From positions 1 to 34,713 of the forward strand of contig JAGAVE010000012.1 of assembly GCA_017942105.1 (NCBI GenBank): a stretch of 34,713 nt of DNA. Direction: 5' to 3'. The position numbers and the translations under genes are program-made. Shown piece after piece: positions 4,631-32,187 of the stretch; position 1 is the stretch's first letter, and every line of letters begins with the position of its first letter. This DNA comes from Clostridia bacterium (GTDB lineage Bacteria; Bacillota; Clostridia; Oscillospirales; Acutalibacteraceae). The notes beneath the pieces were generated by a model. It searched no databases and was not told the DNA's origin. It saw only the letters and a list, made by a program, of their open reading frames with translations.

Positions 4631-4646
4631 TTGACTTCCTTCTTCC

Positions 4647-5630
4647 TTATAGCATATGCGCTCTTATTTCCTCGCCCGATTTATCAATGAGCTGAGCGGG
4701 AGCAATATCAAAAACAGTCTTACAGCCTGAATCGCCCGCCTTGCTGAGATTGTATGCGGCTCGTGCATATGCCGCAAGAACACTGCCTGTAAACTCAGGG
4801 TTTGATTCGAGGTTGAGGCTGTATTCGATTGTGTGTTTTGTGTTAAGGTCAAATCCCGTGAATCCGCTTCGGATAACTCTGCCGCCGTGGGGGATACCCA
4901 TATGGTCGCGCTGAAGCTCTTCAAGGGAGATGAAATTTACTGTTGTATCGTAATCGGCAAAGTAATTCGGCATCGTAACGATTTCCTTTTCAATCCTTGC
5001 CTTGTCTGCGCCTTCTTCAACAACGACGAAGCATTCTCTTGTATGCTTCTGCCTTGTTGTCAGCTCAGGGTTTTCGCCGTTACGCACGCTTTCGACAGCG
5101 CTTTCAACGGGTACTGTATACTGACGGGCATCAATGACGCCTTCAATTCGTCTGATTGCGTCCGAATGACCCTGGCTTACGCCCTTACCCCAGAAAGTGT
5201 AATCGTTTCCGTTGGGGAGGATTGCATTCATATAAAGGCGATTGAGGGAAAACATTCCCGGGTCCCAACCGACGGAGATGATTGCAACCTTGTTTCCTGA
5301 TTTTGCACTATTGTCAACATTTGCAAAGTGCTCAGGGATTTTTGCATGAGTGTCGAAGCTGTCTATAACATTGAAGTTTTCTGCAATTGCGGGAGTTGAT
5401 TCGGGGAGGTCTCTTGCGCTTCCGCCGCAGTTTATAATAACATCGATGTCGTCTTTATAGTCTGCGATTTTATCGTAGGGATATACCTTGACACCTTCTG
5501 TTTTTATTTTAACGGAATCGGGGTCTCTTCTTGAAAAAACTGCAACAAGCTCCATATCGGGGTTGTTTTTAACTGCAGCTTCAACTCCTTTTCCGAGGTT
5601 ACCGTAACCTGCTATACCAATTCTTATCAT
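4647..5630 (-). CDS. ddh: meso-Diaminopimelate dehydrogenase
   Basis: NADPH-dependent reductive amination of tetrahydrodipicolinate directly to meso-diaminopimelate, bypassing the succinylase/acetylase branches. 327 residues, normal for Ddh. Visible features: Rossmann motif GIAGYGNLGKG at the N-terminus, FSRRDP after the second strand, the Ddh-specific GWDPGMFSLNR segment, and PHGGRVIRSGF, which matches the substrate-site region of the family. Nine bases separate it from dapB, and its SD (AAGGTG) overlaps the dapB stop. With dapA, dapB and lysA it completes a four-gene route from aspartate semialdehyde and pyruvate to lysine, so no dapD/dapH-type genes are needed here. Confidence 0.95.
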   Translation of the reverse strand: MIRIGIAGYGNLGKGVEAAVKNNPDMELVAVFSRRDPDSVKIKTEGVKVYPYDKIADYKDDIDVIINCGGSARDLPESTPAIAENFNVIDSFDTHAKIPEHFANVDNSAKSGNKVAIISVGWDPGMFSLNRLYMNAILPNGNDYTFWGKGVSQGHSDAIRRIEGVIDARQYTVPVESAVESVRNGENPELTTRQKHTRECFVVVEEGADKARIEKEIVTMPNYFADYDTTVNFISLEELQRDHMGIPHGGRVIRSGFTGFDLNTKHTIEYSLNLESNPEFTGSVLAAYARAAYNLSKAGDSGCKTVFDIAPAQLIDKSGEEIRAHML

Positions 5631-5639
5631 AAAAACACC

Positions 5640-6377
5640 TTATTCCGTAACAATGCTGTTCATATTGTAAAGTCCTGCAGGCTTGTTGAGAATAAACTCT
5701 GCCGCAGAAACTGCGCCCTCTGCAAACAATGCTCTTGAGTGGGCTTCGTGCTTGAGGGTAATGGTCTGGCTGTCTGTTGAAACGAGAACCTCGTGAATAC
5801 CTATGATATTTCCTCGTCTTACAGCGTGAATGCCGACCTCATTTTTCTCTCTTTTTGCGTTGCCCTCACGGCCGAAAACAAACTGAGCCTTTTCGCGGAC
5901 TGCCTTGATTGCGTTTGCAATCATAAGAGCCGTACCGCTCGGAGCGTCGAGCTTGCGGTTATGATGAGTTTCAACGATTTCGATATCAGCATCGGGCATT
6001 GTAGCCGCCGCCTTGACTGCGAGCTCACAAAGAAGAGCTACGCCGAGTGACATATTTGCAGAGTGGAAAACTGCAATCTTTTTGCCTGCCTCTTCGATGA
6101 GAGAAAGCTCCTCAGGAGTGTGTCCCGTTGTTGCAACAACTGTCGGGATATTATTCTTCACGGCATAGTCGAGAAGCTCCTTTGTTCCGAGATGGTTTGA
6201 AAAGTCGATGATAATATCAGCTTTTCCGGAAAAATCGTTTATATCCGTGTAACAGCCGCTTTCAGCCGCCATTTTGTCTACCTTCGCGGCGACGCTCATA
6301 GTCTCGGAAGCTTCAACTATTTTTTCAACTTCCTTACCCATTCTGCCGCACGCGCCGTTGATGAGTACATTTATCAT
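5640..6377 (-). CDS. dapB: 4-Hydroxy-tetrahydrodipicolinate reductase
   Basis: Reduces hydroxytetrahydrodipicolinate to tetrahydrodipicolinate with NAD(P)H, second committed step to DAP/lysine. 245 residues, normal to slightly short. Visible: NGACGRMG nucleotide-binding loop at the N-terminus, ATTGHTPEE, and the catalytic signature ETHHNRKLDAPSGTA with the His-His pair, Lys and substrate-binding loop. Its ATG overlaps the dapA stop by 4 nt (ATGA), implying translational coupling. Confidence 0.95.
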   Translation of the reverse strand: MINVLINGACGRMGKEVEKIVEASETMSVAAKVDKMAAESGCYTDINDFSGKADIIIDFSNHLGTKELLDYAVKNNIPTVVATTGHTPEELSLIEEAGKKIAVFHSANMSLGVALLCELAVKAAATMPDADIEIVETHHNRKLDAPSGTALMIANAIKAVREKAQFVFGREGNAKREKNEVGIHAVRRGNIIGIHEVLVSTDSQTITLKHEAHSRALFAEGAVSAAEFILNKPAGLYNMNSIVTE

Positions 6378-7264
6378 ACATTCAACCCCTGCTGACGCAT
6401 AAGAGCGAGTAAGTTCTGCTTGTGTGCATCTTCCATCGGAGTAAGGGGAAGACGGAGATAATCTTCGCCGTAACCCATAGCGGCCATAGCAGCCTTAACG
6501 GGAATCGGGTTAACCTCGCAGAAAAGAGCGTTGATAAGGGGAAGGTAATCAAGCTGCATCTTAAGAGCTTCGTCTGTCTTACCTTCGAAGAACTTGTGAC
6601 ACATCTGTGATGTTTCCTTAGGAAGAACATTTGAAAGAACGGAGATAACACCTGAACCGCCGAGAGAAAGAAGGGGAATAACCTGATCGTCGTTACCTGA
6701 GTAGAGGTCAAGTCTGTCGCCGACGATAGCCATTGTCTCAACGATCTTTGAAATGTTGCCGCTTGCTTCCTTGATACCTGTAATCATCGGATGGTCAGCA
6801 AGAACGCCGTATGTTGCAGGCTCAATGTTGCAGCCGGTTCTTGAAGGAACATTGTAAAGAAGGCAGGGCTTTGTGCTTTCGTCAGCAATAGCCGTGAAGG
6901 TCTTGATAAGACCGTTCTGAGTAGCCTTGTTGTAGTACGGTGTAACGAGGAGCATACCTTCGTAGCCGATTTCGCAAGCGAATTTTGTAAGGTCGATTGC
7001 GTATGCAGTGTCGTTTGAGCCTGTACCTGCGATCATAGGAACCTTGCCTGCCGCACGCTTGTATGCAAACTCAAGAGCGTCTCTGTGCTCTTCGTCTGAA
7101 AGAGTTGAGCCTTCGCCTGTTGTGCCGCAGATAACGAGAGCGTCAATGCCTTCGTCGATCTGCCAGTCGATGAGCTTGCCGAAGTTTTCGTAATCGATAC
7201 CTTCTGCGTTAAGCGGTGTGATGAGGGCTGTAGCGGCGCCTCTGAAAATGCTGTTTTCTGTCAT
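6374..7264 (-). CDS. dapA: 4-Hydroxy-tetrahydrodipicolinate synthase
   Basis: Condenses pyruvate with aspartate semialdehyde, the first committed step of DAP/lysine synthesis. 296 residues, the usual length. Visible: ALITPLN, GTTGEGSTLS (pyruvate-binding GTTGE), the catalytic tyrosine in YNVPSRTG, and the Schiff-base lysine in GIKEASGN. The ATG at 7262-7264 follows AAAGGAG with normal spacing. An in-frame extension of 38 codons exists but lies inside the riboswitch terminator, so it is not used. First gene of the operon, 4-nt overlap with dapB. Confidence 0.96.
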   Translation of the reverse strand: MTENSIFRGAATALITPLNAEGIDYENFGKLIDWQIDEGIDALVICGTTGEGSTLSDEEHRDALEFAYKRAAGKVPMIAGTGSNDTAYAIDLTKFACEIGYEGMLLVTPYYNKATQNGLIKTFTAIADESTKPCLLYNVPSRTGCNIEPATYGVLADHPMITGIKEASGNISKIVETMAIVGDRLDLYSGNDDQVIPLLSLGGSGVISVLSNVLPKETSQMCHKFFEGKTDEALKMQLDYLPLINALFCEVNPIPVKAAMAAMGYGEDYLRLPLTPMEDAHKQNLLALMRQQGLNV

Positions 7265-7297
7265 TTTAAAAACTCCTTTGTTTAGGTAATAAGCAAT

Positions 7298-7323
7298 AAA
7301 AAATAGCCGATTTGCATCGACTA
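7298..7323 (-). terminator. Riboswitch-controlled terminator
   Basis: Read on the minus strand: an 8-bp stem TAGTCGAT/ATCGGCTA (with G-U pairs) around a GCAA tetraloop, followed by a T6 run. It lies between the lysine aptamer and the dapA ribosome site and is the expression platform's OFF state. Confidence 0.88.
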
Positions 7324-7361
7324 CCCGAATTTGTTCCGGCAATACTGCCGTGAAAAAATGT

Positions 7362-7527
7362 AAGATAGCTCTCCGCAATATGCGACAATAGGCGGGATCT
7401 TATTCCCGACTACCAGCACAGCCTTTGGCTTGGCTGCCTTCGGCAACGATTCCTTTCACATCTGCCGTAAGCCTTGCCGGAGCCTTGAAAAGCAGGTGCT
7501 ACTGATAATGCGATGCGCCTCTATCGT
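7362..7527 (-). ncRNA. Lysine riboswitch (L box)
   Basis: On the minus strand the RNA carries the L-box landmarks in order: GATAGAGGCGC at the 5' side of P1/P2, an AGTA just after, GGCTCCGG and GTGAAAGG, the invariant GCCGAAGG, GGCTGTGCTGG, a CGGGA/TCCCG hairpin, and the 3' closing GGAGAGCTATCT. GATAG (5') pairs with CTATC (3') to form P1. It is followed by a terminator and then the dapA-dapB-ddh-lysA operon, which fits ligand and targets. Lysine binding should favour termination. The class is well known; the assignment rests on motifs, order and context. Confidence 0.95.
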
Positions 7528-7550
7528 TAATTTTTTATTAACTTTGGGAT

Positions 7551-21732: not shown

Positions 21733-22164
21733 TTATGCGTATTTCTCTTTAAGATATTCCATTGCCATAAGGTAGCCGTCGAAGCCGTAGCCGGCAAATT
21801 TCTTTTCAGCATAAAGACCGACATAGGAAATTCTGCGGAACTCCTCTCTTGCGTCAACATCTGAAATGTGTACCTCGCAGGTCGGGATTGCAACAGCTTT
21901 CAGCGCATCAAGAATTGCGACGCTCGTGTGTGTGTAGGCGGCAGGGTTGATAACGATTCCGTCTGCCTTTTGGTAGGATTCCTGAATTTTATCAACGATT
22001 GAACCCTCGTGGTTGGACTGGAAAAGCTCGACCGTTACGCCGATTTCTTTCGCCTTCGTCTCAATAAGGCTGCAAAGGTCGGCATAAGTGTTTTTTCCGT
22101 AGATATCGGGTTCTCTTATTCCGAGCATATTGAGATTGGGCCCGTTTATAACTAGAATATGCAT
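21733..22164 (-). CDS. aroQ: 3-Dehydroquinate dehydratase, type II
   Basis: Dehydrates 3-dehydroquinate to 3-dehydroshikimate. 143 residues, the dodecameric type II class. Visible: LVINGPNLNMLGIREPDIYG with the catalytic Tyr region, FQSNHEGSIVDKI, NPAAYTHTSVAI, and EVHISDVDAREEFR with the catalytic His. It overlaps the end of the aroE/K gene by 13 nt and is the last gene of the aromatic operon. Confidence 0.96.
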   Translation of the reverse strand: MHILVINGPNLNMLGIREPDIYGKNTYADLCSLIETKAKEIGVTVELFQSNHEGSIVDKIQESYQKADGIVINPAAYTHTSVAILDALKAVAIPTCEVHISDVDAREEFRRISYVGLYAEKKFAGYGFDGYLMAMEYLKEKYA

Positions 22165-23372
22165 TTTAACACCCTTTCTGCCGTAATTTCGGCGTCTGCA
22201 TCAACCTCGACCGTGAAATCGGCAAATGCTTCATAGGTATCTTTTCTGGCTTCGTATATTTTCCTGACGGCATCCTCATCCTTGGAAAGCGGACGACCGT
22301 CAAGAGCGAGAAGAGAGAGATCTTTTTTTAGATATATAACAATGCCGTTTTGCCTGAGGGCATCGCGGTTTTCTTTTTTCATAACGGCACCGCCGCCCGT
22401 TGCAATAATTTTTGAAAGCTTTTTTCCTGCATCTTTGACGGCGTTTGTCTCCTCCTGACGGAAAAACGCTTCGCCTTCAGTCGAGAAAATCTCAGGGATC
22501 GGTCTGCCGTCTGCCTTGACGATTTCCTCGTCTGTGTCGATAACCTCCCTCTGAAGCTTTTCACAAAGGATTTTGCCGACGGTCGATTTTCCGCAACCGG
22601 GCATACCGATGAGGACGATATTCTTCTGCTCCCGAAGCATTGCTCGATAAACCTTATCGATCATTTCGTCACCGAGCTTTTGGTCAATAAACTGCTCTGC
22701 GGAGCGAAGAGCCTGAGCAACGAGCATTGTCAGTCCGTTTGCAAAGGGGATGCCAAGCTCTTGTGCGTCGATAAGAAGCTGAGTCATACACGGGTTATAG
22801 ATAAGGTCGAGAACGCATTGGATTTTTTTGAATTGACTAAGGTCAATCAGGCGATCTCCGTTATTTGGAAACATTCCGACGGGGGTTGTGTTTACGATAA
22901 TGTCAGCATCGTAATGCTTCTCAATATTGCCGTAATTGTTTTCTCCCGTCCTGCTGACGACAATTATCTCTTTCGCGCCGCAATCCCTTGCGACCTCACA
23001 GACAGTAAGGCTAGCGCCGCCGCTACCCAGCACGAGAACCTTTTTGCCTTCATAATCGGCACCGCAGGATTTTGACATATAGTCAAAACCGAAATAGTCC
23101 GTGTTATCGCCGTAGAGAGTTCCGTCAGCTCGTCTTATAACGGTGTTTACACTGCCGATTTTTTTTGCCGTTTCCGAAAGCTCATCGCAATGGTTGTAGG
23201 CATCAATTTTATATGGAATTGTAACATTGTAAGCTTTGAGCGAAGTGTCCTTGAAAAAATCATCAAGCTCCTCGGGCTCACGGCAAAAAAGCTCGTAATT
23301 GTATGAGCCGAAATGAGCGTGGATTTCAGGGGAAAGGCTGTGCGAAAGCTTACGGCCAAGCAAACCGAACAT
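22152..23372 (-). CDS. aroE/aroK: Fused shikimate dehydrogenase - shikimate kinase
   Basis: One 406-residue polypeptide carries two pathway steps. Residues 1 to about 245 are AroE: SHSLSP for shikimate hydroxyls, NVTIPYK with catalytic Lys55, GDNTD with Asp92, GSGGAS nucleotide loop (but lacking the usual GAGG), NTTPVGM. Residues about 248-406 are AroK: Walker A GMPGCGKST (256-264), DTDEEI, EGEAFFRQEE with the shikimate-binding Arg, TGGGAV, and DGRPLS in the lid. The start ATG at 23372 follows GGAGGAATAACG, 2 nt after the pheA stop; a 15-codon upstream extension is rejected because it overlaps pheA. The fusion should channel 3-dehydroshikimate to shikimate-3-phosphate. Confidence 0.94.
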   Translation of the reverse strand: MFGLLGRKLSHSLSPEIHAHFGSYNYELFCREPEELDDFFKDTSLKAYNVTIPYKIDAYNHCDELSETAKKIGSVNTVIRRADGTLYGDNTDYFGFDYMSKSCGADYEGKKVLVLGSGGASLTVCEVARDCGAKEIIVVSRTGENNYGNIEKHYDADIIVNTTPVGMFPNNGDRLIDLSQFKKIQCVLDLIYNPCMTQLLIDAQELGIPFANGLTMLVAQALRSAEQFIDQKLGDEMIDKVYRAMLREQKNIVLIGMPGCGKSTVGKILCEKLQREVIDTDEEIVKADGRPIPEIFSTEGEAFFRQEETNAVKDAGKKLSKIIATGGGAVMKKENRDALRQNGIVIYLKKDLSLLALDGRPLSKDEDAVRKIYEARKDTYEAFADFTVEVDADAEITAERVLKCIF

Positions 23373-23374
23373 CG

Positions 23375-24511
23375 TTATTCCTCCGTATAGCTTCCGAGAT
23401 ATGTGAATGCTTCGCAATCGTTTTCAAGCTCAGCGATAAGTGCTTTGAAATCGGGCGAGTAAACGGATGCGTTGATATCAAAATAAAACATAAATTCGAA
23501 ATTACTGCCTGAAATCGGACGGCTTTCAAGCTTTGTAAGGTTAAGTCCGAGCGCCGCAAAACGGGCAATCATATTGTAAAGAGAGCCCGGTGTGTGCGGA
23601 ATAGTGAGCATAATGCTTGTTTTCTCAGCACCCGGGTAGATTTCAAGCTCTTTTGAGATGCAGATGAATCGGGTGTAGTTATTCTGTGTATTTTGAACAT
23701 TGCCCGAGAGGATTCTCAAACCGTAGAGCTCAGCGCATTCCTTAGCGCCGATTGCGGCGATATCCGTTCTTCCTGATTCCGCAACAATTTTTGCGGCTTC
23801 GGCAGTATTTTTGCAGACGTGTGTCTTAACGCCGAGCTGGCTGATGAAAGCCGAGCATTGGTTAAGAGCCTGCTCGTGAGAGTAGATCTCCTTAATCGAG
23901 CTGATGCTCGTTCCGCTGTTTGCAAGCAGCTTATGCTCGATGCAGAGCTTCATACTGTGCGTGATGAAAAAGCTGTATTTTGACATAAGGTCGTAAACCT
24001 GATTAACTGAACCTGCCGAGCTGTTTTCAACGGGAAGAATACCGTAACGGCAAAGACCTGAGTCAACCGCTTTAAAAACATCCTCAAAGCCGTGGAAATA
24101 CATTATGCTCGGGTAAGTAAACATCTTGTCGCAAGCGTGCTGAGAATATGCGCCCTCAACACCCTGGCAGGCAACAACTGCGCGGTCCGGTCTCTCCTTA
24201 GGGTTTTCTGCAGTAACTTTTTCGATTTTTTCGATGAGTGCAGAATTCTTTGAATTAAGACTTCTCTGGTAAGAACAGCTTACATCAAACATCGTCTGAT
24301 AGAGAACTCTTGTATAGTTGCTGAAATGGGGAGCAACCTTTGATGTGACCTTATTGATGACCTGTCTTTCGCGGCCGCGGTCGGAAACTGCAAGTCCGTT
24401 TGCACGCTTATATTCTGCGATTTCTGCGGCAACATTCATTCTTCTTTCAAAAAGACGGACAAGCTCGTCATCAATGCTGTCGATTTCGTTTCTGAGATTA
24501 TTTATATCCAT
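23375..24511 (-). CDS. pheA: Bifunctional chorismate mutase / prephenate dehydratase
   Basis: P-protein making phenylpyruvate from chorismate. 378 residues from ATG 24511, which follows GAAGGTG; the TTG 15 nt upstream is not needed. Domains in order: AroQ-type chorismate mutase (about 1-85; RNEIDSIDDELVRLFERRMNVA), prephenate dehydratase (about 105-285; GVEGAYSQHA, ILPVENSSAGSV, NYTRFICIS with the catalytic Thr-Arg-Phe), and a C-terminal ACT domain (about 295-370; GSLYNMIARFAALGLNLTKLESRP), the usual phenylalanine feedback site. Since tyrA in the same operon lacks a mutase domain, this protein may supply prephenate for both Phe and Tyr. Confidence 0.95.
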   Translation of the reverse strand: MDINNLRNEIDSIDDELVRLFERRMNVAAEIAEYKRANGLAVSDRGRERQVINKVTSKVAPHFSNYTRVLYQTMFDVSCSYQRSLNSKNSALIEKIEKVTAENPKERPDRAVVACQGVEGAYSQHACDKMFTYPSIMYFHGFEDVFKAVDSGLCRYGILPVENSSAGSVNQVYDLMSKYSFFITHSMKLCIEHKLLANSGTSISSIKEIYSHEQALNQCSAFISQLGVKTHVCKNTAEAAKIVAESGRTDIAAIGAKECAELYGLRILSGNVQNTQNNYTRFICISKELEIYPGAEKTSIMLTIPHTPGSLYNMIARFAALGLNLTKLESRPISGSNFEFMFYFDINASVYSPDFKALIAELENDCEAFTYLGSYTEE

Positions 24512-24522
24512 AGTTTTCACCT

Positions 24523-25593
24523 TCAAATAAGATTAATAAGTGCGAGTGCGGCCGCCGCTTCAATACAAGGAACAGCTCTGGGGACGATGCAAGGGTCATG
24601 CCTGCCTGTGATAACAAGCTCTTCCTGAGTCATTGTTTCAAGGTTGACCGACATTTGCGGCTTGGCGATTGACGGAGTAGGTTTTACGGCGACGCGGAAA
24701 ATAATCGGCATTGACGATGTTATACCGCCTAAAATACCGCCGTGATTATTTGTTTCTGATGCGATTTTTCCGTCAACGAGAATGAAGCTATCGTTATTCT
24801 GACTGCCTCTGAGGTCTGCACAGTCAAATCCGTTGCCGAATTCAATTCCCTTGATTGCGGGGATTGCAAAAACAGCCTTGCTCAGCGCATTTTCAACGCC
24901 GTCAAACATCGGGTCACCGATGCCTGCGGGAAGTCCCGTTACGGCACATTCGATAACACCTCCGACGGAGTCCGAATCGAGCCTTGCCTCTTCGATTTTT
25001 GCAAGCATTTTATCCTTGACGGAATCATCGATAAGCGGAAATTCCTTTGAAGAAACTTTCGAAAGTGTATCGGCGTCAACATTGACGGGGTCAAATCTTG
25101 AATCTTTGATTCCTGCGATTTTTTCAATGTGAGCGCTGATGCGTATGCCTTTTTCTTCAAGAATCTGCATAGCAATAGCGCCTGCAAAGCATAAGGGTGC
25201 CGTCAGCCTGCCGGAAAAATTTCCTCCTCCGCGGATATCATTGAAGCTGTTATGCTTCATATATGCCGCGAAGTCAGCGTGTGACGGGCGGGGAAGGGTT
25301 TTGAGCTTAGAATAATCTTTTGAATTCTGATTGTTGTTTTTTATGATTGCGCATATCGGCGCACCGCAGGTAATTCCGTCAACAACGCCTGATACAATTT
25401 CCGGCAAGTCCGCTTCCTTACGGGTTGTTGAATAAGCGTTTTTGCCCGGAGCGCGACGAGCCATAAAATTGAGGATTTTTTCCATATCAAGCCTGACACC
25501 TGCAGGGATACCGTCAATAACGATTCCGATAGCCTCGGAATGAGACTGGCCGAAAATTGTAATTTTAAATTTTTCACCAAAGCTGTTTGACAT
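24523..25593 (-). CDS. aroC: Chorismate synthase
   Basis: Converts EPSP to chorismate with reduced FMN. 356 residues. Visible: FGQSHSEAIGIVIDGIPAG with the catalytic His, the RRAPG region, ADFAAYMKHNSFNDIRGGGNFSGRLTA-type signature (FNDIRGGGNFSGR), GGVIECAVTGLPAG, NHGGILGGIT, and the C-terminal GRHDPCIVPRAVPCIEA. The start overlaps aroA by 20 nt. Confidence 0.96.
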   Translation of the reverse strand: MSNSFGEKFKITIFGQSHSEAIGIVIDGIPAGVRLDMEKILNFMARRAPGKNAYSTTRKEADLPEIVSGVVDGITCGAPICAIIKNNNQNSKDYSKLKTLPRPSHADFAAYMKHNSFNDIRGGGNFSGRLTAPLCFAGAIAMQILEEKGIRISAHIEKIAGIKDSRFDPVNVDADTLSKVSSKEFPLIDDSVKDKMLAKIEEARLDSDSVGGVIECAVTGLPAGIGDPMFDGVENALSKAVFAIPAIKGIEFGNGFDCADLRGSQNNDSFILVDGKIASETNNHGGILGGITSSMPIIFRVAVKPTPSIAKPQMSVNLETMTQEELVITGRHDPCIVPRAVPCIEAAAALALINLI

Positions 25594-26809
25594 CTGCGTT
25601 ACCTCCGAGAGCTATGAAGTCACTGAAAAATTCGGGATAAGATTTGTTTACTGCCTGAGCATCGTTTATTATAACACAGTTTTTGCATTTTTGCGAGGCG
25701 ACCGCGGCAGACATAACGATTCTGTGGTCGTTAAAGCTTTCAACAGTGCCGCCGTGGAGGGCTTCTTTGCCGTTGACGATAATTCCGTCAGCCGTCGGCT
25801 CTGCATTTCCGCTGAGCGAATTTACCATTTCGACGGTTGATTTTATCCTGTCGCTTTCCTTAAGGCGAAGACGCCCGGCGTTATAAATCCTTGTTTTGCC
25901 CTCTGCCGTCGATGCAACCGCACAGATGACGGGCACAAGGTCGGGAATGTCTGAAGCGTCAATTTCTGCACCGTGAAGAGAGGAAAGAGAAGCGTGGATA
26001 TAGCCGTTTTCCTCGGTAATTTCTGCACCGAAAGAACGAAGAATATCGAGGATTTTTCTGTCTCCCTGAGGAGAATCGGTGTTAAGACCCGACACCTCAG
26101 CTCCCATTGCCAGAAGAAACGCCGCGTTTGACCAGTCACCCTCTACGCAAAAAGCTCCTGCCTTGAAATCCGCTTTTTTCATTATGTATGCGTTTTCCTT
26201 TTCCCGGGTGTCAACGCCGAAAAGAGAAAGAACATAGGTGGTTATATCGATATAAGGCTTTGACTCAACGGGAGGGATAACCTCGATTTCTCCTCCGCAG
26301 AGGGGAAGAGCAAGAAGCAGACCCGTGATAAATTGCGAGCTGATGTTTCCTGCTATTGTGAATTTACCTCCCGTGAGCTTTCCTGAAATCTGAAGAGGGA
26401 AAGAGTCATTGCTTGTGATACCGTGATTTTTCATTTCATCAAGCAAGGGCGTAACGGGACGGGAAGGGAGCCTGCCTTCACCCGTGAAGGTAGCGTTAAT
26501 TCCAAGAGCGGCAACAACGGGAAGAAGAAAACGGAGAGTTGAGCCGCTTTCTTTACAGTTAAGCTCTGCCTTTTCGGGAAAAGCGCAGGGAGGCGTAACC
26601 GTCCACTCGCTGCCGTTTTTCTCAATCCTGACGCCGAGAGCTTCAAGACAACCTGCCGTTGCGTCGATGTCCACGGAAGTTTTATTTATTTTAATTGTAC
26701 TTTTTTCTTTAGCAAGTGCGGCGCAGATAAGCATTCTGTGCGCAACGGATTTTGAAGCAGGTGCTTCAATTTTTCCTGAAAGAGAAGACGGATTTATTTC
26801 TATATTCAT
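25574..26809 (-). CDS. aroA: EPSP synthase (3-phosphoshikimate 1-carboxyvinyltransferase)
   Basis: Transfers enolpyruvyl from PEP to shikimate-3-phosphate. 411 residues, a little shorter than the 427-residue E. coli enzyme. Visible: SKSVAHRMLICAALA, ESGSTLRFLLPVVAALG, GRLPSRPVTPLLDEM, SSQFITGLLLALPL, LRLKESDRI and NDHRIVMSAA. The PEP-site loop reads CKESGSTLRF; the segment that in class I enzymes is LGNAGTA(M)RP is therefore of the GSTLRF (class II-like) type, suggesting lower glyphosate sensitivity, which is inference. ATGA overlap with aroB. Confidence 0.95.
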   Translation of the reverse strand: MNIEINPSSLSGKIEAPASKSVAHRMLICAALAKEKSTIKINKTSVDIDATAGCLEALGVRIEKNGSEWTVTPPCAFPEKAELNCKESGSTLRFLLPVVAALGINATFTGEGRLPSRPVTPLLDEMKNHGITSNDSFPLQISGKLTGGKFTIAGNISSQFITGLLLALPLCGGEIEVIPPVESKPYIDITTYVLSLFGVDTREKENAYIMKKADFKAGAFCVEGDWSNAAFLLAMGAEVSGLNTDSPQGDRKILDILRSFGAEITEENGYIHASLSSLHGAEIDASDIPDLVPVICAVASTAEGKTRIYNAGRLRLKESDRIKSTVEMVNSLSGNAEPTADGIIVNGKEALHGGTVESFNDHRIVMSAAVASQKCKNCVIINDAQAVNKSYPEFFSDFIALGGNADVKQLW

Positions 26810-27852
26810 AATTCAAGAAGCTCCTTGAACTCAGCGAGAGCGATATTTAAAATTTTACAGTTGCCAATCTCTTCAGGCACGATGATTGAAATTCTGCCCG
26901 AAGAGCTTTTTTTGTCGTTTTCCGTTGCATAGTAGAGCGAGCTGTTTGTAAACGGACAGGAAACAGGGAGGTTGTTTTCAAGCAAAGCGTCAATAATTTC
27001 GTCCTGACACCGTTCTTTTGAGAGACACCTCTTCCAAGCGATTTCAGATATGAGCAACATACCCATCGCAACTGCGTTTCCGTGAGAAATCTTAAATTCA
27101 CTCATTTTCTCGATGGAATGGGCAAGAGTGTGGCCAAAGTTGAGAAGGTTGCGCTTTCCTGTATCAAACTCATCTTCACTGACTATTTCACTTTTTATCG
27201 AAACGCAACGGGCAACGACATTTTCAATGTTTTCAACGAGCTCTCCGTTCTTAACAAGCTCAAAAAGTGCTCTGTCTGCAATAACACCGTATTTGATGAT
27301 TTCTGCAACACCTTCCGAAAAGATTTCGGAAGAAAGGGTGAGAAGCATCTGCAGATCGCAAAGAACAAGCTCAGGTTGATTGAAAACTCCTGCAAGGTTT
27401 TTGCCTGATTTCAGGTTGACAGCGGTTTTTCCCCCGACGGAAGAGTCGACCATAGCAAGAAGCGTCGTCGGAATCTGAACAAGGTGCATACCTCTCATAT
27501 ACATCGCGGCGCCGAGCCCCGTAAGGTCTCCCGTAACGCCGCCGCCGAGAGCGATAACAACATCTTTTCTGGAAAAATGCTTGCTTGCAAGAAATTCAAG
27601 AAGCTCAAAAAGAACCTCGGGAGATTTTGATTTTTCACCGTGAGGGAAAACAAAAAGCTCGTTTTTAATATTTTCTTCTCCAAGATATTTTTTGGCCTTT
27701 TCGCTGTAAAGTGAAGCTACGGTATCGTCAGAAACGATGCAGACTTTCACATCTCCGAAAAGCTCTTTTATCTTCTTGCCGAGCAGGGAGAGAACACCCT
27801 GGCCGATTATAACATCATATTCTTTTGAGGCTTTGACTTTTATTGTTTGCAT
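26806..27852 (-). CDS. aroB: 3-Dehydroquinate synthase
   Basis: Cyclises DAHP to 3-dehydroquinate, NAD- and metal-dependent. 348 residues. Visible: FPHGEKSKS, ALGGGVTGDLTGLGAAMYMRG (NAD loop), IPTTLLAMVDSSVGGKTAVN, FSEGVAEIIKYG with a metal-ligand Glu region, NFGHTLAHSIE and ISHGNAVAMGM with metal-ligand histidines. SD AGGTGG overlaps the tyrA stop, 2-nt gap. Confidence 0.96.
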   Translation of the reverse strand: MQTIKVKASKEYDVIIGQGVLSLLGKKIKELFGDVKVCIVSDDTVASLYSEKAKKYLGEENIKNELFVFPHGEKSKSPEVLFELLEFLASKHFSRKDVVIALGGGVTGDLTGLGAAMYMRGMHLVQIPTTLLAMVDSSVGGKTAVNLKSGKNLAGVFNQPELVLCDLQMLLTLSSEIFSEGVAEIIKYGVIADRALFELVKNGELVENIENVVARCVSIKSEIVSEDEFDTGKRNLLNFGHTLAHSIEKMSEFKISHGNAVAMGMLLISEIAWKRCLSKERCQDEIIDALLENNLPVSCPFTNSSLYYATENDKKSSSGRISIIVPEEIGNCKILNIALAEFKELLEL

Positions 27853-27854
27853 AA

Positions 27855-28685
27855 TTAACCCACCTGCTTTTTAGCATCTTTACCTTCCCTGAGCAATGCG
27901 GAAAGGTCTTCGCTGTTACCGCTCACAAGAGCGTCTCTGTATTGTTGAAGATTATTGATAAGAGTATCGATTTCATCTGCGAGATAGTCGCTGTTTTCAA
28001 GGAAAAGCTCTGTCCACATTTTGTCGTTGAGTTTTGCAACTCTCGTCATATCCTTATAACTGCCTGCCGAGAAGCCTTTTCTGAAGGTTGCCTGAGGACT
28101 CTTGACATATGCGCTCGAAACAACATGAGCAAGCTGAGAGGTGAAGGCAATGATTCTGTCGTGCTCGTCGGGCGTAGCGAATGTCGTATCGCCGAAGCCG
28201 ATGGATTCAAAAAATCTTTTTGCCTTGTCAAGAATGGAGATGTCCTGAATTCCGCAGGGAGTCAGAATCATCGAAGCTCCCTTGAAGAGGCTTGCTCTTG
28301 ATGAACCGAAGCCCCAAAACTGAGTACCTGCCATCGGGTGACCGCCGATGAATGTGAAGCCATGTTCGTTTGCGATCGGTATTATTTTATCGCATACGGC
28401 TCTTTTGACACCGCTGCAATCAAAAACAAGACAGTCCTTTTTGAATTTATCTGCGTTGTTTATTATATAATTGACCGTTGCTCCGGGATAAAGAGAAACG
28501 ATAACTATATCACAATCCGTGAGATTTTCTTCGCTCAGTGGTTCGTCGATTGCTTCGGTGAGCTTTGCCGCCAGCATTGTGCTTTCGTCAATGTCGTAAC
28601 CGTAGACGATGTATTCCTTCGTTTCTTTAATTGCTTTTGCCATTGAACCGCCGATAAGGCCGAGTCCGACTACTCCGATTTTCAT
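27855..28685 (-). CDS. tyrA: Prephenate dehydrogenase
   Basis: Oxidative decarboxylation of prephenate to 4-hydroxyphenylpyruvate for tyrosine. 276 residues: a monofunctional enzyme with neither a chorismate mutase domain nor a clear ACT domain. Visible: GVVGLGLIGGSMAKAI (NAD loop), GGHPMAGTQFWGF, LTPCG, and DEHDRIIAFTSQLAHVVSSA with the conserved His of the family. SD AAAGGA. Without an ACT domain, feedback by tyrosine is less likely at this step, which makes control at the operon leader more important (inference). Confidence 0.94.
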   Translation of the reverse strand: MKIGVVGLGLIGGSMAKAIKETKEYIVYGYDIDESTMLAAKLTEAIDEPLSEENLTDCDIVIVSLYPGATVNYIINNADKFKKDCLVFDCSGVKRAVCDKIIPIANEHGFTFIGGHPMAGTQFWGFGSSRASLFKGASMILTPCGIQDISILDKAKRFFESIGFGDTTFATPDEHDRIIAFTSQLAHVVSSAYVKSPQATFRKGFSAGSYKDMTRVAKLNDKMWTELFLENSDYLADEIDTLINNLQQYRDALVSGNSEDLSALLREGKDAKKQVG

Positions 28686-28707: not shown

Positions 28708-29721
28708 TTATTCTGCGTTCTGATGAAGAACCTTGCGGATGACCTCAGCTTCCTTGACAACCTGAGCAAACTGAACAGGAGTGAGCGCCTGAGGACCGTC
28801 GCAAAGCGCATGCGCCGGGTCGTTATGAACCTCTATCATAAGTCCGTCTGCACCTGCGGCAACTGCGGAGAGAGCGAGGGGGCGGACGAGCCTTGAAAGA
28901 CCTGCCGCGTGGCTTGGGTCAGCGATAACGGGAAGATGTGACTTCTCTTTAAGAAGCGCGATTGCTGAAATATCCATTGTGTTTCTTGTGTACTTTTCGA
29001 AGGTACGGATTCCTCGTTCGCAAAGGATAACTTTTTCGTTGCCGCCTGCCATAATGTATTCCGCACTCATAAGAAGCTCTTCCATCGTGCTTGCAAGGCC
29101 TCTTTTAAGAAGGATAGGTTTATCCGTATGTCCAAGCTCCTTGAGAAGCTCGAAGTTCTGCATATTTCTTGCACCGACCTGAATAACATCAACATTTTCG
29201 AAAAGCTCAAGGTGAGAAATATCCATAATCTCTGTTACGATGGGCATTCCCGTTTCAGCCTTGGCTTTTTCAAGAAGGCTGAGACCTTCTGCACGCATAC
29301 CCTGGAAGGCGTATGGTGATGTTCTCGGCTTGAATGCGCCGCCGCGAAGGAGCGTTGCGCCTGCTGCCTTGGTCTCTTCAGCGATTGAACATATCTGTTC
29401 GGGAGACTCAACCGAGCAGGGACCTGCGATATATTGGAAATTTCCGCCGCCGATTTTAAATCCGCCGATGTCGATAACCGTATCGTCGGGGTGGAACTTT
29501 CTGTTTGCATTTTTGAAGGGTTCGCTGATTCGCGTAACCTTTTCAACGATATCAAGGCTGTTGATAAGATCAATGTCAACATGGCTTGTATCGCCGATAA
29601 GACCGAGAATTGTTTCGAATTCACCGACGGTGATATGAACATCAATGTTCATTGATTTAAGCCAATCAACAAGATGATCCTGCTGATTCTTATCAATTCC
29701 GTTTTTAACTACTACTACCAT
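28708..29721 (-). CDS. aroF: DAHP synthase, type I-beta with N-terminal regulatory domain
   Basis: First step: PEP plus erythrose-4-phosphate to DAHP. 337 residues: an N-terminal ferredoxin-like (ACT-like) domain (about 1-70, MVVVVKNGIDKNQQDHLVDW), as in the Thermotoga enzyme, followed by the KDSA-like barrel. Visible barrel motifs: IAGPCSVES, RGGAFKPRTSPYAFQG, QVGARNMQNF, LLKRGL, LCERGIRTFEKYTRNTMDI, DPSHAAG and EVHNDPAHALCDGPQALTP. The N-terminal domain is the known Tyr/Phe feedback site in relatives. SD AGGAGG with 7-nt spacing, immediately after the attenuator terminator. Confidence 0.95.
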   Translation of the reverse strand: MVVVVKNGIDKNQQDHLVDWLKSMNIDVHITVGEFETILGLIGDTSHVDIDLINSLDIVEKVTRISEPFKNANRKFHPDDTVIDIGGFKIGGGNFQYIAGPCSVESPEQICSIAEETKAAGATLLRGGAFKPRTSPYAFQGMRAEGLSLLEKAKAETGMPIVTEIMDISHLELFENVDVIQVGARNMQNFELLKELGHTDKPILLKRGLASTMEELLMSAEYIMAGGNEKVILCERGIRTFEKYTRNTMDISAIALLKEKSHLPVIADPSHAAGLSRLVRPLALSAVAAGADGLMIEVHNDPAHALCDGPQALTPVQFAQVVKEAEVIRKVLHQNAE

Positions 29722-29739
29722 AATAAAACCTCCTGAAAC

Positions 29740-29774
29740 GAAAAAGTTCCGCAGTTTAATTTTACTGCGGAACT
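29740..29774 (-). terminator. Attenuator terminator before aroF
   Basis: Minus strand: perfect 11-bp stem AGTTCCGCAGT (29774-29764) with ACTGCGGAACT (29755-29745), loop of 8 nt, then TTTT. It lies 6 nt before the aroF SD and does not include it, so it acts on transcription. Confidence 0.9.
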
Positions 29775-29861
29775 AAGAAAATCTTATGAAAACATTTTAC
29801 AGCAAAACCAAATAACCCTATTAACTTTTGTTAATAAAGTAAAAGTAAAAGTATTCTGCTG
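29745..29861 (-). promoter_or_regulatory. Four-segment attenuator (aromatic operon leader)
   Basis: Segment 1 is CAGCAGAA (29861-29854), inside the leader ORF just before the Tyr/Phe codons. Segment 2 is TTTGGTTTTGCTGT (29812-29799). Segment 3 is GCAGTAAAATTAAA (29768-29755), which shares bases with the terminator stem and loop. Segment 1 can pair with TTTTGCTG of segment 2 (8 bp, one G-U). Segment 2 can pair with segment 3 over 14 positions (four G-U), which excludes the terminator. A ribosome stalled on the Tyr/Phe codons would cover segment 1 and free segment 2, giving readthrough; one that reaches the stop, 8 nt before segment 2, would block it and allow termination. Pairings are read by eye. 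Confidence 0.75.
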
Positions 29862-29880
29862 CAAAAATACTGTGTTTCAT
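29821..29880 (-). CDS. Tyr/Phe-rich leader peptide
   Basis: 19-codon ORF MKHSIFAAEYFYFYFINKS plus stop, with AGGAG 9 nt upstream of its ATG. Codons 10-15 (29853-29836) are TAC TTT repeated three times, so six consecutive codons demand Tyr or Phe, the end products of the operon. It starts about 20 nt after the predicted transcription start of a consensus promoter and ends 46 nt before the terminator stem. The peptide itself probably has no role; its translation senses charged tRNA-Tyr and tRNA-Phe. Confidence 0.82.
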   Translation of the reverse strand: MKHSIFAAEYFYFYFINKS

Positions 29881-29906
29881 CGCTTTAATCTCCTAAAGTT
29901 TTCAAC

Positions 29907-29935
29907 ATTATAGCACCGCGAAAATTAAGTGTCAA
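29907..29935 (-). promoter_or_regulatory. Consensus promoter of the aromatic operon
   Basis: Minus strand TTGACA (29935-29930), 17 bp, TATAAT (29912-29907): a perfect vegetative consensus, start near 29900, giving a leader of about 180 nt before aroF. A strong promoter followed by an attenuator is the expected pairing. Confidence 0.9.
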
Positions 29936-29973: not shown

Positions 29974-30444
29974 TCAGAAATTATCATAGCCGACCATAAG
30001 GGCGAGCTCGTATTTTTCACCGTCGGAAATTGTGGTCTGATCAGCGCCGGTCATAAGAGTTTCACCGTTCTTCTTCAGGCTCCACCATTCTTCCTTGCCG
30101 GTGTCAACCGTCCTGCCGTCTTTGAATGGACCGTAAACTGTCTTGATGTAAAGACCGTAGCCTTCCTGGTCGTTTTTGACATAGCCCTCATCAACAAGCA
30201 TTTTGCCGAGCGTTTCGGCATCGGTCTTAACCTCATATGTTTCGGTTTTACCGTCTGCCGAAATCGTCAGTGTAATGGTTTTTGAGTTGTCTTTTGTTTT
30301 GTCGGTCTTGCCGTTTGCCGAGACCGTCGGAGTGGGTACATTTTCGCTGTTATTCGTTGATAGGGGATTAACATAGAAATAAAGTCCTATTCCTGCGGCT
30401 ATTATCGCAACGCAGGCAACAATAGCAATAATTTTCTTTTTCAT
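29974..30444 (-). CDS. DUF4430 protein with N-terminal membrane anchor
   Basis: 156 residues. N-terminal MKKKIIAIVACVAIIAAGIGLYFYV is a signal anchor; a Thr/Asn/Lys-rich linker (about 28-55) follows, then a compact domain (about 56-156; TLTISADGKTETYEVKTDAETLGKMLVD, WWSLKKNGETLMTGADQT, DGEKYELALMVGY) typical of DUF4430. That domain is related to the C-terminal part of transcobalamin-like proteins and is often found on Firmicutes cell surfaces; binding function unproven. It lies 9 bp after the GH36 gene, probably same transcript. No hairpin terminator is visible between its stop and the aromatic promoter. Confidence 0.82.
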   Translation of the reverse strand: MKKKIIAIVACVAIIAAGIGLYFYVNPLSTNNSENVPTPTVSANGKTDKTKDNSKTITLTISADGKTETYEVKTDAETLGKMLVDEGYVKNDQEGYGLYIKTVYGPFKDGRTVDTGKEEWWSLKKNGETLMTGADQTTISDGEKYELALMVGYDNF

Positions 30445-30453
30445 ACAGTCACC

Positions 30454-32121
30454 TTACAAGAGATTTTTGAGATTGCTCTTACCGGTTCTGATGTTGAAGC
30501 GAAGGGTCTTTTTCTTGCCACCCTCAATGTAGCAGATGCGGACATCCTCTTTTGTAACATACTCGGCAGAGAGAATTTCAGCCTCGCTTCTCTTAAAGAA
30601 GAGCTTTAAGTATTCAACCGTTTCGTCATCATAGTCTCCTGCATTATCTGAGACGAAGAGAACACTGCCGAAGAGGTTGTTGATCTTTGCAAGAAGAAGC
30701 TTCTGCTCCTTTGTGAACTTAAGGTTTGTGTCGCGAAGGAAGAAAACATCGGGGTCGTTGCAGAACACTCTTCCGTCAAGATGACGACGAAGGAAAGTGT
30801 TGTTAATTGCGTGCCTTGTGTTAACGATTTCCATGTTGAGAAGAAGCTTATCAATAAAGTTGAATTCGAAATGGGGAGAAACATCGCAACCTATACGGCA
30901 GGCATCAACAACGCCGAATGACGGGCCGAGGGGTACGCCGCAACCGAGGATGAGCTTCTCTTCGCCAACACATTCACGAAGGAAATCCATAGCCTCGCAC
31001 ATAATTGTACCGCGGGTCTTGCCGTGTCTTGGAAGCATAGCCTCTGAATAGAGGAAGTCAAGCTTGACCATATCGAAGCCCCATTCGTTGACGATAACAT
31101 TAAAGAAGTTTTTGATGTATTCTCTTGCTTCGGGATGGTAGAAATCGAGCGTATAAGCTCCGCCCCAGCCCTGACATCCGAGAAGGGGCTTGCCCTTTTC
31201 GTCCTTAATGAGCCAGTCGGGATGCTCTTTTGCAACCCTTGAAACTCTCTGTGCGCTGAAGGGAGCAATCCAGATACCTGCAAGATAGCCCTTATCGTGA
31301 ATCTTGTCAGCGACATATTTCATACCGTTGGGGAATTTTGCAGGGTTAGGGTCGAGCCAGTCACCGACGAAGGTTTCATAACCGTCATCAATCTGGAAGA
31401 TAGAAACGCTGTCCTTAGCTCTGTCAAGACCGTCAAGGTCGCGAAGGATGATATCCTCGTTGATTTTCTGATAATAGTTATACCATGATGTGTAGCCTGA
31501 AAGGTAATCGATTTTCGGCTTTCTGAGTTCCATTGAGCCGAAATACTTATCAAAAACTTCGTCGTACTTTCCGCTGAAGAACACAACATCAACGAGTGTT
31601 GTCTCATTTTCGAGAGTACAGCCTACGATATCCTTCGAAATGCTGAAACGCTTTTTCGGGCAGTCAAGCTCAAAGAGAGTGTAGCCCTCTCTTTCGCTTC
31701 GTGAGCCGAGGAGAACGAGCTCTTCGCCTTTTCTGAAATATGTGTATGTATAAGAATGGAAAAGACCTTCCTTGTCGTACTGAGCAAAGTGATAGTCACC
31801 CTGAACGCCTGCAAAGAATTTCGTGAAATCATTCAGATGAGTGATTTTTCCGAGACCTGAGATTTTATCGTTTGCGTGGCATTCGTAGCACTTTGTCCAG
31901 GACTGGAAGCCATTTGCAAAAAACACTTCGTCTTTTTCAAGAGTTTTTTCGGTGTTAAGTTTGAATTCAAGCATTTCAAGAGCAGTTTTCGGCTTGAGAA
32001 CGCATTTAACTGCATTTTCGCCGGCCTCAAGCTCAAGCGCATAATGCTCGTTTTCAGTAGCTCTGTTTTCGTAAGTTACGCCGTTTGCTTTGTACTTGAT
32101 ATACGGTTCAAAGTTAAACAT
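30454..32121 (-). CDS. GH36-family alpha-galactosidase-like enzyme, cytosolic
   Basis: 555 residues from ATG 32121 (SD GGAGGAG); a 22-codon upstream extension lies over the promoter and is rejected. N-terminal beta domain (about 1-205), then the melibiase barrel: GYTSWYNYY, FQIDDGYE with GDWLDPNPAKFPNG, GIWIAPFSAQ, the nucleophile in MVKLDFLYSEA (Asp355) and the acid/base Asp in CRIGCDVSP (Asp413). No signal peptide, so it hydrolyses imported alpha-galactosides such as raffinose- or melibiose-type sugars. It is shorter than the 700-residue GH36 enzymes, and the exact linkage cannot be read from sequence. Confidence 0.88.
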   Translation of the reverse strand: MFNFEPYIKYKANGVTYENRATENEHYALELEAGENAVKCVLKPKTALEMLEFKLNTEKTLEKDEVFFANGFQSWTKCYECHANDKISGLGKITHLNDFTKFFAGVQGDYHFAQYDKEGLFHSYTYTYFRKGEELVLLGSRSEREGYTLFELDCPKKRFSISKDIVGCTLENETTLVDVVFFSGKYDEVFDKYFGSMELRKPKIDYLSGYTSWYNYYQKINEDIILRDLDGLDRAKDSVSIFQIDDGYETFVGDWLDPNPAKFPNGMKYVADKIHDKGYLAGIWIAPFSAQRVSRVAKEHPDWLIKDEKGKPLLGCQGWGGAYTLDFYHPEAREYIKNFFNVIVNEWGFDMVKLDFLYSEAMLPRHGKTRGTIMCEAMDFLRECVGEEKLILGCGVPLGPSFGVVDACRIGCDVSPHFEFNFIDKLLLNMEIVNTRHAINNTFLRRHLDGRVFCNDPDVFFLRDTNLKFTKEQKLLLAKINNLFGSVLFVSDNAGDYDDETVEYLKLFFKRSEAEILSAEYVTKEDVRICYIEGGKKKTLRFNIRTGKSNLKNLL

Positions 32122-32158
32122 AATGTTGCTCCTCCGGATGCAATTTTTTACATTTAAC

Positions 32159-32187
32159 ATTTTACCATATATTGCAGAATAATTCAA
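32159..32187 (-). promoter_or_regulatory. Promoter of the GH36-DUF4430 unit
   Basis: Minus strand TTGAAT (32187-32182), 17 bp, TAAAAT (32164-32159). Confidence 0.65.

Follow-up and report, generated by a model that had tools for sequence, protein, structure and literature searches.

Introduction

Ribosome-mediated transcription attenuation is classically known from the trp, pheA, his and ilv operons of Proteobacteria, in which a leader peptide rich in codons for the pathway product is combined with mutually exclusive 1:2, 2:3 and 3:4 pairings, a terminator placed before the first structural gene, and termination by default when the leader is not translated. The locus described here is built on the same plan, and differs from those attenuators in being clostridial, in that Tyr and Phe would be sensed jointly ahead of a complete shikimate-to-prephenate operon, and in having an extra hairpin nested in the 1:2 stem of its leader. 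Amino-acid genes of Firmicutes are mostly described as being under the control of T-boxes, TRAP or riboswitches. A T-box reads the charging of one tRNA through direct contact between that tRNA and the leader RNA, without any leader peptide.

The preliminary description of this locus contrasted attenuation, as best known from Proteobacteria, with T-box or TRAP control as the more usual arrangement in Firmicutes. This contrast needs to be softened, since leader-peptide attenuators have already been reported in Firmicutes and their kin (PMC2965389, PMC5794164, PMC8632094). The closest published case that we found is the uORFC-13-1 motif of Brewer et al. 2021, which is placed exclusively upstream of aroF in Acholeplasma, comprises 24 representatives from Acholeplasma and environmental sequences only, and was proposed to act by attenuation (PMC8632094). 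Like the leader studied here, it consists of a promoter, an upstream ORF and a terminator directly after it, and its U-run codes for at least one Phe; unlike our Tyr/Phe leader, it is discussed in the text of that paper with reference to Phe only, the comparison being one of descriptions (PMC8632094). In bacilli, His leader peptides were reported by Naville and Gautheret 2010 to replace T-boxes before hisS* and hisZ; there too a leader peptide substitutes for a T-box in Firmicutes, and does so at paralogous genes, but these leaders sense histidine and belong to hisS paralogs (PMC2965389). The leucine-rich attenuator of the Staphylococcus aureus ilv-leu operon, as reported by Kaiser et al. 2018, likewise puts a biosynthetic operon of a Firmicute under a leader peptide and a terminator, although the leader is a different one and serves branched-chain amino acids (PMC5794164). 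According to a survey of 2005, classical attenuation governs none of the tRNA-synthetase genes of Firmicutes (PMC1262725).

Our literature search, by title and the start of the abstract, found no publication on a Tyr/Phe leader in Clostridia; subscription journals lay mostly outside this search, and such a leader may be described elsewhere. As far as searched, neither the clostridial Tyr/Phe family and its breadth nor its nested hairpin and interchange with T-boxes appear to have been described before. The class of mechanism is a known one, that of classical ribosome-mediated attenuation.

Results

Organization of the leader and the operon

The window, that is the whole stretch of 34,713 nucleotides that was analysed, carries on its minus strand an aromatic operon preceded by a leader. 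A perfect consensus promoter, a 19-codon ORF with TAC TTT repeated three times in tandem, and a hairpin with a T-run just before the ribosome site of aroF had been claimed in the preliminary description, and all of them were found at this place. The elements are as follows.

29907..29935, minus strand: promoter, TTGACA, 17-nt spacer and TATAAT (12/12 matches), with TG before the -10 element
29821..29880, minus strand: leader ORF MKHSIFAAEYFYFYFINKS, 19 codons and a TAA stop
29836..29853, minus strand: sensor, six tandem codons, TAC TTT three times (Y10-F15)
29815..29840, minus strand: nested hairpin between the codon run and segment 2, 11 pairs, AAAA loop
29741..29774, minus strand: intrinsic terminator, 3:4 hairpin 29774-29745 (11 pairs, 6 of them G-C) and TTTT
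28708..29721, minus strand: aroF, DAHP synthase, the first gene of the operon (NF006421 and TIGR01361, above cut-off)
21733..28685, minus strand: tyrA, aroB, aroA, aroC, pheA, aroE-aroK fusion and aroQ (type II), assigned by NCBIfam

A Shine-Dalgarno-like AGGAG lies 9 nt 5' of the leader ATG, and the leader peptide of one relative (L002, MKRNIFAAEYFYFYFINKS) is near-identical to that of the window. The hairpin 29840-29815, absent from the preliminary description, is nested inside the 1:2 stem. The U-tract of the terminator is short (TTTT, then CG), and AGGAGG and the ATG of aroF (29721) come directly after it. Folding of the 185-nt leader gave a z-score of -6.7, with none of 200 shuffles folding equally well. 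Upstream of the leader there is an ORF on the same strand (29974-30444), and the consensus promoter stands between the two. This ORF, which adjoins the promoter, codes for 156 aa and has no NCBIfam (E<=0.001) or Pfam (E<=1e-8) match; its neighbour, 30454-32187, is melibiase-like.

The operon covers every step from DAHP synthase to both prephenate dehydratase and prephenate dehydrogenase, in agreement with the whole-pathway control that had been claimed, and its genes make both of the sensed amino acids, Tyr and Phe. The pheA product is a chorismate mutase-prephenate dehydratase. Besides aroF, the matches of aroB, aroA, aroC, aroQ and the chorismate mutase domain of pheA were above the NCBIfam cut-offs, those of tyrA, the dehydratase part of pheA and aroE/K being strong and below the equivalog cut-offs. 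The first intergenic gaps are of 22 and 2 nt, and the genes overlap thereafter. Among named relatives (defined below) with at least 800 nt of sequence after aroF, tyrA was located within 2 kb of aroF in 42/54 leader-bearing versus 13/21 other loci, and aroB in 46/54 versus 12/21. Neither trpE nor trpD was found in the window's genome, which is 79.7% complete, when the same search gave matches in 14 of 14 control genomes; because of this incompleteness the missing genes are weak evidence, and they fit a leader devoid of Trp codons.

A lysine riboswitch (RF00168, 72.8 bits) was detected elsewhere in the window (7358-7531, minus strand), upstream of an apparent lysine operon (3335-7378, minus strand) with dapA, dapB, diaminopimelate dehydrogenase and a lysA-type decarboxylase. 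The window thus has two amino-acid operons with two different RNA sensors.

Conservation of the leader in relatives

The named relatives were the best 80 of at least 590 related aroF stretches, and a leader was flagged where an ORF of 8-45 codons with at least 5 F/Y in 7 residues occurred within 400 nt upstream of aroF. This was the case at 58 of the 80 loci (the best 80 of at least 590), versus 1/80 for the reverse complements, and 22 of the 80 had no flagged leader. Dinucleotide-shuffled upstream regions gave a mean of 1.85 flagged ORFs of 80 (maximum 7, in 20 sets), control stretches within and after aroF gave 0/80, 0/80, 0/76 and 1/75, and a stricter flag (at least 6 F/Y in a 7-residue window) was raised on average 0.2 times per 80 shuffled upstream regions.

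As this set consists of the nearest relatives, aroF places across the class were sampled as well. Out of 148 genomes drawn evenly, 99 had an aroF match at E<=1e-100. The matches numbered 129, one being the window itself; 100 of the other 128, from 87 genomes, were hand-picked, best first, the omitted ones being 24 that were mostly weaker matches and 4 whose frames ran long at the N-terminus, one of these 4 lying at a contig edge as well. A leader was flagged at 41/100 of these places, in 23 of 45 families, versus 5/100 reverse complements, which indicates that a few of the 41 are probably due to chance; the remaining 59 places had none. Four of the class places come from the window's own order: one was flagged (L104, MNARFFNGFFDFSFFGKSDLCCREK, with the lowest accepted score), and another (L155) has a T-box instead of a leader. 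The preliminary description had named a lack of conservation of the aromatic codons as speaking against its proposal; in both samples, at 58/80 and 41/100 places, the codon run is conserved. A chance origin of the run was considered and rejected on the same comparisons (58/80 versus 1/80, and 41/100 versus 5/100).

Together with the window, the 58 named loci make up a set of 59 leaders. Adding 40 of the 41 class leaders gave 99, of which 92 remained at no more than 75% leader identity and 91 were used; excluded were L184, a flagged class place with no terminator behind its ORF, and one leader whose segment-2 region was shorter than 15 nt. The aromatic runs of the 91 leaders, which were chosen for F/Y content, hold 272 Y and 263 F codons, and both amino acids are present in 85 of the 91 runs, a property for which they were not selected. 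A promoter with at least 10/12 matches was found upstream of 71/90 leaders, where mononucleotide shuffles predict 3.7, and 85/91 leaders had a terminator score of -15 or lower, versus 1.3 per shuffled set. At the position of the nested hairpin, a local hairpin beat shuffles (p<=0.05) in 58/91 leaders, with a mean z of -2.4. A Shine-Dalgarno-like 4-mer precedes 62/91 leader starts, this being a raw count.

Trp codons occur in 9 of the 91 leaders (L034, L072, L074, L077, L118, L120, L128, L137 and L153), some of which might sense Trp too, where trp genes are present. L072 comes from a cultured organism, Sporobacter termitidis DSM 10068. A search of the window's own genome for further Tyr-Phe-Tyr-Phe codon runs returned 15 matches, versus 68 for a backwards control pattern. 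Eight matches were read: two (L095 and L096) are the aroF leader itself, two (L091 and L094) lie in long frames, three (L090, L092 and L093) lack an ATG ahead of the run, and the last, L097, is an ATG-started frame of 26 codons with one such run, opposite a 361-aa ORF. Scanning of viral contigs for aroF gave one distant locus (L198).

Alternative pairings and their covariation

The segments that take part in the alternative pairings of the window, in addition to the terminator, are these.

29852..29881, minus strand: segment 1, extending into the first aromatic codon, partner of segment 2 (duplex of -21.4 kcal/mol)
29785..29813, minus strand: segment 2, of which 29809-29785 pairs with segment 1 and 29813-29798 with segment 3 (computed duplexes)
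29754..29769, minus strand: segment 3, ascending arm and loop of the terminator, antiterminator partner (duplex of -13.9 kcal/mol)

The 14-position pairing with the terminator arm and loop proposed in the preliminary description was thus recovered (29813-29798 with 29769-29754). The pairing with the leader ORF, given there as 8 bp, exists as well, but it is longer than that (29881-29852 with 29809-29785). With 200 shuffles of segment 2 for each, the p values in the window were 0.01 for 1:2 and 0.005 for 2:3.

Conservation of these pairings was assessed in a swap test, in which segment 2 was paired with segments 1 and 3 of its own and of the other leaders, the energies being corrected for row and column means. 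This test took the place of a per-base-pair covariation count; the segments shift against each other in the alignment. The search for segment 1 extended no more than 6 nt into the codon run, which bounds the measured end of that segment (median +3 nt). In the 91 leaders, segment 2 paired with its own segment 1 better by 4.68 kcal/mol than the row and column expectation, and with its own segment 3 better by 6.01 kcal/mol, neither value being reached in 20,000 permutations. Preference of segment 1 for its own segment 3 was not significant (0.21 kcal/mol, 3701/20,000 permutations). Reversing a segment left 0.71 kcal/mol for 2 with reversed 3, a small effect (45/20,000), and 0.06 kcal/mol for 1 with reversed 3 (7869/20,000). 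General self-complementarity of AT-rich leaders, considered as a cause of the pairings, was rejected on the 1:3 and reversed-segment controls. Segment 1 therefore matches 2, and 2 matches 3, while 1 does not match 3, which is the pairing graph of a classical attenuator, kept as the sequences change. Loss of the alternative pairing in relatives, the other outcome that the preliminary description had held against its proposal, is accordingly not what the swap tests revealed (0/20,000 for both pairings).

At the level of single leaders, shuffles gave p<=0.05 for 2:3 in 42 of 59, and for 1:2 in only 24 of 59, so that the case for 1:2 rests on the group test. The two partners of segment 2 overlap by at least 5 nt in 85/91 leaders. 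Examples of the pairings are ATTTGGTTTTGCTGTA with CGCAGTAAAATTAAAC in the window, TAAGTAATTTGTGCA with CGCACGGATTACTTC in L025, and GCGTTTGGTGTGCGAGGC with TCCCGACACCAAACGG in L078. In three leaders (L009, L052 and L053), segment 1 has the motif ACGCA, with TTGCG-type partners, versus GCAGC/GCTGC in the kin of the window; these segments look as if they had been replaced together.

Effect of the ribosome position

The effect of a ribosome on the leader was calculated by masking, with an assumed 30-nt footprint, equilibrium folding, and RNA made up to the terminator loop. The mean number of 2:3 pairs in the 59 leaders was 8.7 in the free RNA, 14.5 with a ribosome at the first aromatic codon, 12.0 at the last one and 4.6 at the stop codon; the corresponding values for the window are 0.3, 15.9, 1.5 and 0.3. 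Relative to the stop codon, a stall at the first aromatic codon gave over 2 more 2:3 pairs in 52/59 leaders and fewer in 2/59; relative to the free RNA, the number was higher in 36/59 and lower in 2/59. This calculation is in line with the four-segment logic of the preliminary description, which was to be examined by folding with the leader masked: the antiterminator is favoured when the ribosome sits on the aromatic codons, and not when it sits on the stop codon.

A scan of the window codon by codon gave 14.6-15.9 pairs for codons 3-14 (15.9 at codon 14), 1.2 at codon 15 and 0.2-0.3 after it; a stall on codon 15 no longer frees segment 2. In the masking model, codons 3-9 would serve as well as the aromatic ones. 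Thus, the model explains why the run is not placed further downstream, and it is conservation that singles out the aromatic codons. In 85 of the 91 leaders, 2:3 pairing is greater with the ribosome on aromatic codons than with it on the remaining ones, none of 2000 label rotations reaching the mean difference, and in 87 a ribosome at the stop codon (of the assumed 30-nt footprint) overlaps or has passed segment 2. By calculation, therefore, the sensor codons lie where a stall masks segment 1 and where a ribosome that finishes the leader does not free segment 2. The finished RNA at equilibrium keeps the terminator despite a stalled ribosome (in the window, 8.7 pairs of 3:4 and 0.1 of 2:3). As the terminator is the more stable structure in the complete RNA, antitermination must be won kinetically.

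Discussion

Proposed mechanism

Every property of a classical attenuator that can be checked in a sequence was found here, that is the short ORF, the terminator, the exclusive pairings, the placement of the codons and the nature of the downstream genes. It is highly probable that the leader is a ribosome-mediated transcription attenuator, with charged tRNA-Tyr and tRNA-Phe as its signals and the entire aro-tyrA-pheA operon under its control. The above results show which parts are present, that they are conserved, that the pairings covary and how, by calculation, the position of the ribosome acts on them; from these results we infer the course of events in the cell, from use of the promoter, through translation of the leader and stalling of the ribosome, to termination or readthrough. 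When both Tyr and Phe are plentiful, the ribosome would translate the leader to its stop codon, and either segment 1 would pair with segment 2, or the terminating ribosome would cover segment 2. With segment 2 occupied, the 3:4 terminator would form, and transcription would end before aroF. Shortage of either amino acid would make the ribosome wait at codons 10-14, covering segment 1; the freed segment 2 could then pair with segment 3 as RNA polymerase makes it, no terminator would form, and the operon would be transcribed. Readthrough would thus be expected under Phe or Tyr starvation. Without translation of the leader, 1:2 should form and transcription would terminate by default. RNA polymerase probably pauses at the nested hairpin, which would let the ribosome catch up.

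Alternative explanations

The same parts could be read in another way, namely that it is the peptide, with its many aromatic residues, that halts the ribosome, perhaps together with a small-molecule co-inducer, as in nascent-peptide arrest, of which TnaC and the Erm leaders are examples. Such an arrest would work with the same ribosome geometry, and the peptide is indeed strongly biased, F and Y making up 0.20 and 0.145 of the residues. Nevertheless, we find it improbable, as F and Y differ greatly in order and spacing from leader to leader, so that the content persists with no fixed motif, and as the nearly equal use of Y and F codons is what would be expected for a sensor of both tRNAs.

Less probable still, to a degree that leaves it little room, is control of the operon by a T-box or by some other leader that responds to a trans-acting factor or binds a ligand (TRAP, riboswitch), the short ORF being incidental. 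T-boxes do precede aroF at 9/59 leaderless class places (3/20, 2/20 and 4/19 in the batches scanned), and in the window's genome they are found at pheS and tyrS. On the other hand, both the F/Y codons and the two pairings are conserved, and among the flagged class places, 40 of 41 of which were scanned for T-boxes (L149 was left out), a T-box was present at 1/40, this being L184, which lacks a terminator behind its ORF, and that T-box was the sole Rfam match among the 40 places. At the window's leader, no Rfam family reached its gathering score (cmscan, 4227 families), and matches up to E 10 were only to implausible eukaryotic or viral families. A T-box (RF00230) or other Rfam RNA at the site was therefore rejected; T-box leaders are found before aroF in other class members and are absent here. 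Curated amino-acid operon leaders in Rfam include Phe, Trp, His and other leader families. No Rfam family, these leader families included, was above threshold at the site or at the 5 leader-bearing named loci scanned (out of 58), and the scan showed no T-box either at these 5 loci or at 15 leaderless named loci (out of 22). With T-boxes at 9/59 class and 0/15 named leaderless places, most leaderless places have neither sensor.

The window's own genome gave 11 T-box matches, 6 of them over the cut-off. Genes behind eight T-boxes include pheS, tyrS, valS, a leuA-like gene, an O-acetylhomoserine sulfhydrylase gene and cysE, the match at cysE being below the cut-off; tyrS is taken as the gene downstream of its T-box, given that the minus-strand loci were left unturned. 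Since T-boxes stand at pheS and tyrS and the leader at the operon, the same cell appears to read Phe and Tyr charging in two ways, with T-boxes serving the synthetase genes and ribosome stalling serving the biosynthetic operon. Two other T-boxes of this genome (L083 and L085, C120:46113-46351 and C120:50421-50661) lie 4 kb apart, one in front of a leuA-like gene and the other in front of a gene that matches acyl-CoA synthetase only weakly; a third one (L089, below the cut-off) precedes a gene for a similar protein.

A plain terminator with a promoter upstream and no response to amino acids, either a constitutive attenuator or the terminator of the upstream gene, is scarcely credible: the hairpin is well formed and ORF 29974-30444 does lie upstream on the same strand, but a consensus promoter separates this ORF from the leader, 2:3 covaries though a plain terminator has no need for it, and the codon run is located where stalling matters.

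Spread and evolution of the leader

If the leader is an attenuator, as we propose, its distribution allows a broader view, towards which we incline by a small degree only: an attenuator of five elements (segments 1-4 and the nested pausing hairpin), responding to Tyr and Phe, would be a main shikimate control across Clostridia, perhaps older than many of the families, with segments that drift together under a fixed logic; it would have been exchanged with T-boxes at the same gene, and may have moved with the operon to other phyla. The last suggestion is made because MAGs labelled as Lentisphaerae and Treponema carry the leader.

Within a single class, some lineages have a leader peptide at aroF and others have a T-box there, so that the series of aroF loci offers natural material for asking why and how one sensor of tRNA charging replaces another. 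The collection of about 90 non-redundant leaders with drifting segments is a good data set for the study of attenuator evolution, and the leaders annotate the control of the aromatic pathway in many uncultured bacteria.

In MAGs labelled as Treponema, Treponemataceae or Spirochaetales, aroF is 67-69% identical to that of the window; among these Spirochaetales-type MAGs, none was flagged in L014, L028 and L065, and a leader is present in L046 and in L025, where it is TTG-started. In two MAG contigs labelled as Oligosphaeraceae and Lentisphaerae (L077, upstream of 1505, and L079, upstream of 447), aroF is Clostridia-like (66 and 64% identity) and is preceded by a Tyr/Phe leader of this kind, which reflects either transfer of the controlled operon or mislabelled contigs. 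The terminator of L077 is clear, and that of L079 was scored as weak (-4.8), with longer G+C-rich arms before the T-run seen by eye.
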